NCBI GenBank assembly: GCA_900596015.1
Contig: UVIF01000012.1
Location: 372,001-436,000 of the forward strand
DNA: 64,000 bases
Source of the DNA: Pseudomonas viridiflava
GTDB lineage: Bacteria; Pseudomonadota; Gammaproteobacteria; Pseudomonadales; Pseudomonadaceae
Reading direction: 5' to 3'
Part shown: piece after piece, positions 47,644-49,771 of the stretch
How the letters are laid out: every line of letters starts with the position of its first letter
Numbering within the stretch: the stretch's first letter is position 1
Translations under genes and position numbers: made by a program
Notes under the pieces: generated by a model
The model's database searches: none
Told to the model about the DNA's origin: nothing
The model's input: only the letters and a program-made list of their open reading frames with translations

Positions 47644-48537
47644 ATGAAGACTCCAAAACGCATTGAACCGCTGATCGAGGACGGTCTGGTGGACGAGGTG
47701 CTGCGACCGCTGATGAGCGGTAAAGAAGCAGCTGTCTATGTGGTGCGCTGTGGCAAGGAATTGCGCTGCGCCAAGGTCTACAAGGAGGCGAACAAACGAA
47801 GCTTTCGTCAGGCGGCCGAATATCAGGAAGGCCGCAAGGTGCGCAACAGCCGGCAGGCCCGGGCAATGGCCAAGGGCTCCAAGTTCGGCCGCAAGGAAAC
47901 CGAAGACGCCTGGCAGAACGCCGAGGTCGCGGCGCTGTTCCGGCTGGCCAGCGCCGGTGTGCGTGTGCCCAAGCCGTACGATTTTCTCGAGGGCGTGCTG
48001 CTCATGGAGATGATCTGCGACGAGGACGGCGACGCAGCCCCACGTCTCAACGACGTCGAGCTGGAACCGGATCAGGCGCGCGAGTACCACGCGTTCCTCA
48101 TCCACCAGATCGTGCTGATGCTGTGCACGGGTCTGGTGCACGGTGACCTCTCCGAGTTCAACGTGCTGCTGACGCCCGATGGCCCGGTGATCATCGATCT
48201 CCCGCAGGCCGTGGATGCGGCGGGCAACAACCATGCTTTCAGCATGCTTGAACGCGACGTCGGTAACATGGCCAGCTATTTCGGCCGGTTCGCTCCCGAG
48301 CTTCGCCAGACGCGCTACGCGAAGGAAATGTGGGCGTTGTACGAAGAAGGCAAACTGCACCCGGCCAGTGTGTTGACCGGTGAGTTCGCAGAGGAAGAAG
48401 TGGAAGCCGATGTGGGCGGGGTCATGCGTGAAATCGAGGCCGCGCGCCTGGACGACATTCGCCGACGTGCCGCGCGCGAGGCCGATGACCAGCCAACCAA
48501 GACAACGGAAGAACCGCCTCCGCCCTGGTTGCAGTAA
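47644..48537 (+). CDS. RIO-type serine/threonine kinase
   Basis: A 297-residue RIO1-like kinase. The nucleotide loop is SGKEAAVYVV (25-34), the invariant lysine lies in RCAKVYK, the catalytic loop reads LVHGDLSEFNVLLT and the metal loop VIIDLPQAV. All catalytic residues are present. Bacterial RIO kinases are little studied, and one next to cueR in P. aeruginosa (PA4780) has, as I recall, been described as a stress-linked kinase. The C-terminus ends in an acidic, Pro-rich tail (about 270-297). It is convergent with cueR. Confidence 0.92.
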   Translation: MKTPKRIEPLIEDGLVDEVLRPLMSGKEAAVYVVRCGKELRCAKVYKEANKRSFRQAAEYQEGRKVRNSRQARAMAKGSKFGRKETEDAWQNAEVAALFRLASAGVRVPKPYDFLEGVLLMEMICDEDGDAAPRLNDVELEPDQAREYHAFLIHQIVLMLCTGLVHGDLSEFNVLLTPDGPVIIDLPQAVDAAGNNHAFSMLERDVGNMASYFGRFAPELRQTRYAKEMWALYEEGKLHPASVLTGEFAEEEVEADVGGVMREIEAARLDDIRRRAAREADDQPTKTTEEPPPPWLQ

Positions 48538-48572
48538 GCGGCCCGCTTGAAGCAGACGGCGTTTTCCCCGCG

Positions 48573-48974
48573 TCAGCTGCAACAGCCCCCGGATGCCAGC
48601 TCCTGAAGGATCGGGCAGTCCGGGCGGTCATCGCCGTGACAGTGCTCCACCAGGTGTTCCAAGGTGTTGCGCAGGCTGCTCAGCTCGCCGATGCGACGAT
48701 CGAGCTCGTCGATATGCCGGCGCGCCAGCTGTTTCACATCGGCGCTGGCACGCTTGCGGTCCTGCCACAGCGTGAGCAGCCTGGCCACTTCTTCCAGTGA
48801 AAACCCAAGGTCGCGCGAGCGTTTGATGAAACCGAGCGTGTGCAGGTCCGCCGCCTGATACAGGCGGTAGCCACTGTCGCTGCGCACGGCCGGCGCGAGC
48901 AGTCCGATGGACTCGTAGTAACGGATCATCTTTGCGCTGAGGCCGCTTTCGCGGGCGGCTTGGCCAATGTTCAT
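48573..48974 (-). CDS. cueR: Cu(I)-responsive MerR-family regulator CueR
   Basis: A 133-residue regulator. The N-terminal MerR helix-turn-helix is MNIGQAARESGLSAKMIRYYESIGLL, followed by a dimer helix and a C-terminal metal loop with Cys112 and Cys120 (CHGDDRPDC), the same numbering as the Cu(I) ligands in E. coli CueR. A further CCS ends the protein. It should activate copper-export promoters by untwisting a 19-bp spacer. Two such promoters are in this window, one pointing into cueR itself and one into copZ. Confidence 0.95.
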   Translation of the reverse strand: MNIGQAARESGLSAKMIRYYESIGLLAPAVRSDSGYRLYQAADLHTLGFIKRSRDLGFSLEEVARLLTLWQDRKRASADVKQLARRHIDELDRRIGELSSLRNTLEHLVEHCHGDDRPDCPILQELASGGCCS

Positions 48975-49004
48975 GCTCGAAATGTCCTCGCAGGCGTTTG
49001 CGCC

Positions 49005-49035
49005 AGTATCAACCTTGCCCCTCTGGCAAGGTCAA
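49005..49035 (-). promoter_or_regulatory. CueR-type promoter reading into cueR
   Basis: On the leftward strand TTGACC (-35, 49030-49035) and GATACT (-10, 49005-49010) are separated by 19 bp. The spacer carries the perfect dyad ACCTTGCC-N5-GGCAAGGT. The long spacer and dyad are the hallmark of MerR-family copper promoters. The -35 box overlaps the stop codon of the gene at 49032-49418. It implies that cueR is self-regulated. Confidence 0.85.
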
Positions 49036-49418
49036 TACTCCAGTGGCTCGGGCTTCAAGTACAAGCCGGCGCTGCCTGCAGCGATACGGAATTTCTGAAT
49101 CTGCCCGGCCTGCAGGGTCACGATCACCGGTTTGTATTCGGTCATGCCCGGCGCACAACCAGGCGTTTGCCCCGGAAGCTGACGCAAACCGACCGACACG
49201 GGGCCTGGCGGCAGGTTGAACGACGTGGCCTGCTCCTGAAACAAACGCCCGACCAGTTGGTCCTGCAGGTACACCCCGATCTCGCAGGACGTGGCGACTT
49301 CCAGGCGCTCGCGGGAAACGATCAGAATGCCGTATGGCTGGCCGGTACTGGCACCGGCCCAACAGCTCTGCGCTGCCAGGGCACACATTCCGAAAAGCCA
49401 TGCAGTGGTGGGGCGCAT
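49032..49418 (-). CDS. Periplasmic protein of unknown function
   Basis: A 128-residue protein with a signal peptide (cleavage likely after SCWAGA, near residue 23). The mature part is small, beta-rich in appearance, with a few cysteines (Cys in VATSCEIGVYLQ and PGCAPGMTEY) and the ending KFRIAAGSAGLYLKPEPLEY. I do not recognise the family. It resembles the short periplasmic proteins with a PEGA-like or carbohydrate-binding style repeat seen in pseudomonads, but that is weak. The ATG has an AGGAGAAATT ribosome site. It lies between cueR and copZ and may be part of the copper response. Confidence 0.75.
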   Translation of the reverse strand: MRPTTAWLFGMCALAAQSCWAGASTGQPYGILIVSRERLEVATSCEIGVYLQDQLVGRLFQEQATSFNLPPGPVSVGLRQLPGQTPGCAPGMTEYKPVIVTLQAGQIQKFRIAAGSAGLYLKPEPLEY

Positions 49419-49511
49419 CGAATTTCTCCTGGCGGATGGGCAGCGTGCAGCTTGGACGAGCCGCTGGAGGAATTCCAGCCCGGCCGATCCGAGCAGAACT
49501 TGATCTTTACC

Positions 49512-49542
49512 TTGACCTTGCCTCGATGGGAAGGTTGAAGAT
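49512..49542 (+). promoter_or_regulatory. CueR-type promoter of copZ
   Basis: TTGACC (49512-49517) and GAAGAT (49537-49542) are spaced by 19 bp, with the near-perfect dyad ACCTTGCC-N5-GGGAAGGT in the spacer. It lies 32 bases before the copZ ATG. Confidence 0.88.
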
Positions 49543-49573
49543 GATTGCAATCCCATCCAGCGAGGTATCACCC

Positions 49574-49771
49574 ATGCAACTGTTCAACGTGCAAGGCATG
49601 ACCTGTGGCCATTGCGTACGCGCCGTGACCCAGGCGATTACCGCTCAAGATCCGGCTGCCCAGGTCCAGATCGACCTGGCTGTGGGCAAGGTCGAAACCG
49701 ACAGCAATCTGCCCCCCGAGCGAATCATCCAGCTGATCAGCGAAGAAGGCTACAGCGCGACAGCCGCATAA
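49574..49771 (+). CDS. copZ: Copper chaperone CopZ (heavy-metal-associated domain)
   Basis: A 65-residue single HMA domain that carries Cu(I) in the cytoplasm to the exporting ATPase. The metal site is GMTCGHC with Cys11 and Cys14. The start MQLFNVQGMT follows a GCGAGG-like ribosome site. A CueR-type promoter lies directly upstream. No copA-type ATPase is in the window, so its partner is elsewhere. Confidence 0.95.
   Translation: MQLFNVQGMTCGHCVRAVTQAITAQDPAAQVQIDLAVGKVETDSNLPPERIIQLISEEGYSATAA

Follow-up and report, generated by a model that had tools for sequence, protein, structure and literature searches.

A CueR-type promoter in front of cueR in a Pseudomonas genome, very probably left there by loss of the copper ATPase gene cueA

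Introduction

The closest relative of the arrangement studied here is the cueAR operon of Pseudomonas putida, reportedly described by Adaikkalam and Swarup in 2002, in which the gene of a copper-exporting ATPase, cueA, precedes that of the regulator CueR, and CueR is said to activate cueA.

In MerR-type control, as laid out in the available parts of PMC1526738 and PMC11195947, copper-free CueR holds an over-long promoter, and copper-loaded CueR reshapes the DNA and activates it. The sensor gene often shares a unit with its pump: hmrR is described as most often lying second in actP-hmrR operons (PMC1526738, available part). In Stenotrophomonas maltophilia, copper and gold raise the transcripts of both the ATPase gene and cueR of an ATPase-cueR pair, as measured by RT-PCR, and the authors infer self-regulation by CueR (PMC7911910, available part). 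An earlier note on the DNA studied here had set its cueR promoter against Escherichia coli, where cueR is not known to be self-activated. The available parts of PMC4507017 and PMC13339815 make no statement either way on self-activation of E. coli cueR, and E. coli was the wrong baseline, since copper does raise Stenotrophomonas cueR in the ATPase-cueR pair (PMC7911910, available part). A search of the open-licence literature retrieved no paper on a cueA-less, self-promoted cueR. In the present work, we analysed such a locus in the window, which is the whole stretch of 64,000 nucleotides of Pseudomonas DNA under study, and compared it with related loci inside and outside the genus.

Results

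The window gene cueR (48573..48974, minus strand) encodes a Cu(I)-responsive MerR-family regulator with a TIGR02044 score of 184 bits against a curated cut-off of 147, and counting along its translation located Cys112 and Cys120, the Cu(I)-binding cysteines; both the score and the cysteines identify it as CueR. Ser77 is present as well. The promoter reading into this gene occupies 49005..49035 on the minus strand, with a -35 box TTGACC (49035-49030), a 19-bp spacer and a -10 box GATACT (49010-49005), and its letters on that strand are gagtaTTGACC-TTGCCAGAGGGGCAAGGTT-GATACT. Between the two boxes lies the dyad ACCTTGCC-AGAGG-GGCAAGGT (49012..49032, minus strand), an 8-5-8 arrangement without mismatch. 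The 19-bp spacing and a dyad of the form ACCTTSCC-N5-GGSAAGGT between -35 and -10 are those of a CueR/MerR-type promoter. Hence the placement in the earlier note was exact in strand, spacing and perfect dyad, and the promoter points into a genuine cueR. The overlap of the -35 box with the stop codon of the upstream gene, claimed in the same note, was likewise borne out, as the TGA at 49034-49032 falls inside TTGACC.

The -35 box begins 61 bp ahead of cueR. The short leader with the ribosome site (48975..49004, minus strand), where relatives have cueA, carries GAGGA (48989-48985) 10 nt ahead of the cueR ATG (48974-48972), and a transcription start near 48998 is a reasonable prediction from this layout. 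A scan of 48500-49700 for a plain sigma-70 promoter with a 16-18-bp spacer gave none.

On the other side of the locus stands a copZ-like gene (49574..49771, plus strand) for a 65-aa HMA-domain protein. The protein scores above the Pfam HMA cut-off and below the NCBIfam CopZ cut-offs, so that its name is given by resemblance and place. A second CueR-type promoter (49512..49542, plus strand; TTGACC, 19 bp, GAAGAT) precedes it. Among the matches listed, the copZ site reads without mismatch in both directions in six loci (L023, L025, L027, L028, L032 and L086), and in these species CueR might drive the small upstream gene as well. The PA4780-family RIO1-like kinase gene (47644..48537, plus strand) forms the downstream flank of cueR, as it does in most related loci.

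A dyad search of the window at up to three mismatches returned two matches, with 0 and 1 mismatch. Shuffled windows gave a mean of 0.48 matches and reached two in 7 of 100 cases; because of these shuffles, the evidential weight lies on the perfect match and its neighbours, not on the count. Across the 4.5-Mb genome, only three places had a site with one mismatch or none, namely cueR, copZ and copA2. Allowing 2-3 mismatches added four further rows, three of which are opposite-strand readings of the same three places, and a reversed control pattern gave 2 matches at up to three mismatches. A chance match was thus rejected for the cueR promoter by the window shuffles and the genome-wide site search. 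The third site (C2:93478-93501, one mismatch) lies just 5' of the copper ATPase gene copA2. The earlier note had counted two CueR outputs, for cueR and copZ; both sites stood, and the count did not, as copA2 on another contig has a third. The likely core regulon comprises the sensor, chaperone and pump genes, all three with a site of their own.

To place the promoter among its relatives, 80 related cueR loci were taken from the species collection, and cueA was counted when more than 300 residues aligned. The window Pseudomonas is near P. baltica, and the CueR of one locus (L009) is 99% identical to that of the window. As many as 77 of the 80 loci have cueA upstream of cueR, the exceptions being L009, L012 and L028. 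The cueA match ends 0-61 bp before cueR in 75 of these 77 loci and 117 and 392 bp before it in the other two, the latter (L026) being a partial match. A CueR-type site precedes cueA in 76 of the 77 loci, with 0, 1 and 2 mismatches in 41, 21 and 14 of them respectively; the remaining locus (L076) ends at a contig edge before any site. The small upstream gene is present in 72 of the 76 cueA loci with a site and always stops at or before it, and in six (L018, L033, L035, L044, L048 and L051) the overlap between the stop codon and TTGA is identical to that of the window. The window has the same conserved upstream gene, the promoter, cueR behind it and the RIO kinase gene after cueR, and lacks cueA between promoter and cueR. 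Because the upstream gene, the promoter type, cueR and, mostly, the RIO kinase gene all match, the window promoter can be regarded as the cueAR promoter minus cueA.

This comparison bears on the view that the promoter is particular to the window locus and gives cueR a new self-activating loop. The perfect anatomy aimed at cueR fits such a view, as does the -10 box GATACT, which occurs in none of the 76 cueA promoters, 56 of which have GATCCT; this is one base in one lineage and proves nothing. Against it, the same kind of promoter and the same upstream gene occur with cueA in place, the stop overlap included in six loci, and cueR is next downstream there. We thus consider a new loop highly improbable. 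A promoter private to the window locus was rejected on the same grounds, and the earlier note's treatment of it as a peculiarity of this locus was mistaken, since an orthologous cueAR promoter precedes cueA in 76 of the 80 related loci. Since that promoter stands before cueA and cueR in the relatives, CueR-driven expression of cueR is probably inherited.

The upstream gene itself (49032..49418, minus strand) encodes a secreted-looking protein of 128 aa and is conserved next to the cueA promoter. It was matched in 78 of 110 loci, with a median of 135.5 bits among L009-L088. Across 23 aligned copies C45 and C88 never vary and a stretch resembling SRERLEV is conserved, and the structure model is all-beta (pLDDT 80). 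The window copy belongs to no Pfam or NCBIfam family; a weak resemblance to DUF2846 appeared in 6 of the 23 proteins (best E 0.0083), the window copy not being one of them. A comparison with PDB sequences gave no match, and Foldseek returned nothing at E 0.001 or better (top hit 1.1e-03, TM 0.44). The protein is possibly copper-linked.

The window genome (G000, in which the window is C11:372001-436000) has no cueA match at E 1e-230, and the locus holds neither cueA nor a detectable scrap of it. Its copA2 (L139, G000:C2:91179-93440; TIGR01511, 587 bits) is 43% identical to cueA and is the only strong copper ATPase gene with a CueR-type site in this genome. A copA2 match at E 1e-200 was found in 23 of 398 genus genomes. 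Identity was at least 61% in 22 of these; the 23rd (G180, 47%) is of another type. All 22 copA2 genes have a CueR-like site with 0 to 4 mismatches near their start, and none was found within 5 mismatches at two 47%-identical genes (L188, L189). The window copA2 seems to be without one N-terminal metal-binding domain that is additionally found in G399, G143 and G400, where an extra match to residues 5-71 lies upstream in open frames of at least 855 aa. A second cueR, 59-61% identical, is located directly downstream of copA2 in L210, L211, L212, L240 and L241, and in L235, L236 and L238 a cueR of the same identity and position is the only match of the genome, as if copA2 travelled with its own regulator.

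At E 1e-230, cueA is missing from 16 of the 398 genomes, and 11 of the 16 have copA2 (G000, G030, G043, G089, G132, G143, G186, G196, G225, G295 and G309). The other five (G076, G133, G223, G272 and G283) are assemblies in 140 to 1200 contigs, and next to cueR in one of them (G076, L200) lie pieces of cueA in two reading frames. The association between copA2 and absence of cueA gave a Fisher p of 3e-12 over the 398 genomes with kinship ignored. Of 6 independent pairs, drawn from the 36 of 96 rows with a known copA2 state, an average of 4.8 showed copA2 together with loss of cueA, and none showed the reverse (median p 0.06). The two ATPases occur together in eleven genomes, which counts against a replacement of cueA by copA2.

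A quick tree was built from cueR and RIO of 96 loci, with SH-aLRT as the only support measure and the outgroup set to Stutzerimonas (L087). The 32 of 128 loci that did not have both genes were left out, including the cueA-less L198 and L204 as well as L205, which has 343 bp of contig ahead of cueR and comes from a genome (G069) with a cueA match. Duplicates had been removed by identical copA2 coordinates (L193, from the genome of L028, and L090, from that of L009). The window and L009 group with the cueA-bearing L031 and L108 (96, starred) and then with L101 (97, starred), which nests the window lineage within cueA-bearing ones. The cueA-less label, carried by 10 tree rows, needs 7 changes, 6 of which are forced by starred branches. 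The change count alone cannot separate gain from loss, and remains of cueA in cueA-less loci can. Such 3' scraps were present in five cueA-less loci: 50 codons in L028, shorter ones in L118, L197 and L199 (tblastn), and one seen by eye in L012. For the window itself, loss of cueA rests on the tree and the shared flanks, because no scrap is detectable there.

Outside the genus, 16 of 38 family genomes with a copA2-like match were read at the cueR locus, a set picked for copA2 and not at random. In all four g10 genomes (G412, G450, G488 and G460; L229-L232), a site with 0, 1, 2 and 0 mismatches, respectively, precedes cueR at -91 to -70, and no cueA and no copy of the small upstream gene were found in the 1.5 kb upstream of cueR. 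They thus resemble the window in having their own CueR-type site before cueR and a copA2-type ATPase elsewhere, and differ from it in that the small upstream gene is absent from those 1.5 kb. The g17 genomes (4 of 4) and two g5 genomes (L237 and L239, cueR 57% identical) have neither cueA nor a cueR-directed site with at most two mismatches, and in g9 and g15 (L224, L225) cueA is still present. A self-directed cueR site is therefore neither unique to the window lineage nor retained everywhere. The g10 genomes are what one would expect if promoter and cueR had stood together ancestrally and cueA had been inserted later in other lineages. However, cueA precedes cueR in the Stutzerimonas outgroup and on the deep branches of the tree, and scraps of cueA persist in five cueA-less loci, which leaves late insertion the most improbable of the origins considered. 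An insertion of cueA elsewhere in place of a loss here was rejected by the tree and these scraps.

Twelve cueA-less loci were read for survival of the site (the window, L009, L012, L028, L118, L194, L195, L197, L199, L203, L198 and L204). A site with 0-2 mismatches stands before cueR in 10 of the 12, at -59 to -275, and none was found before cueR in L198 (G196) and L204 (G132). Besides the window, G043 alone among the 398 genus genomes matched the whole 211-bp stretch 48900-49110; identical copA2 coordinates show it to be the genome from which L009 comes. Across 445 bp, 14 positions differ between the window and L009, none of them among the 31 promoter positions, an outcome with a chance of about one third by our own arithmetic. 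The comparison thus gives no significant evidence of selection on the promoter, and a retained promoter cannot be distinguished here from a recent deletion of cueA.

These data are relevant to how the promoter works. With the same origin, the site might be a relic that perhaps still binds CueR, cueR being transcribed mainly by read-through from upstream and self-activation carrying no weight. Such a state is consistent with the cueR genes kept without a site in G196 and G132, and also in the g17 and g5 genomes, and with the unchanged 31 bp just described. It is opposed by the lack of a plain sigma-70-like promoter in 48500-49700 and by the sites kept with 0-2 mismatches in 10 of the 12 cueA-less genus loci, and we hold it to be rather unlikely. 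It competes with the favoured explanation on working only, not on origin.

Discussion

Promoter anatomy, conserved synteny, the absence of cueA and the presence of copA2 with its site are read directly from the DNA. On this evidence, the promoter in front of cueR is very probably the old cueAR promoter, with cueA lost between promoter and cueR and copper export taken over by copA2. Loss of cueA in the window lineage would have placed the CueR promoter directly before the gene of CueR itself, and copA2, located elsewhere behind a CueR-type site of its own, would have assumed export. Apo-CueR bound to the dyad is expected to keep the promoter, over-long with its 19-bp spacer, silent apart from some leakage, and Cu(I)-CueR would distort the DNA and turn on cueR, copZ and copA2 together. 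Copper would then raise CueR as in the ancestral operon, now uncoupled from the pump. Because no plain sigma-70-like promoter was found in 48500-49700, basal CueR may come from leak or read-through. Self-activation of cueR, as one step of this scheme, is probable.

Copper-induced cueR is probably ancestral in itself, because the ancestral promoter stood before cueA and cueR. A stronger proposal would be that repeated replacement of cueA by copA2 made a stand-alone sensor loop that selection has kept, with a -10 box improved to GATACT in the window lineage and a CueR level governed by copper and no longer tied to the pump; we regard it as speculative and doubtful. The loci provide a natural series of operon states along the loss of the pump gene in the presence of a second pump, from intact through scraps and clean removal to loci where the promoter is gone too. 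Such a series allows testing whether positive feedback on a metal sensor is maintained in its own right or comes as a by-product of an operon shared with the pump.

Compared with known systems, the cueAR operon is a familiar type, and its promoter orphaned before cueR by loss of the pump gene is the new element. Promoter type, upstream gene and gene order of the window are like those of P. putida cueAR, as in 76 of the 80 loci. The window differs in that cueA is absent, the -35 box begins 61 bp before cueR and copA2 is found elsewhere. In S. maltophilia, unlike in the window, the regulator still adjoins the ATPase gene (PMC7911910, available part). As far as the available parts of the sources go, actP-hmrR (PMC1526738) and Salmonella golTS (PMC7911910) share with the window a copper- or gold-sensing MerR-family regulator and a 19-bp promoter, whereas both keep the ATPase in the same unit.
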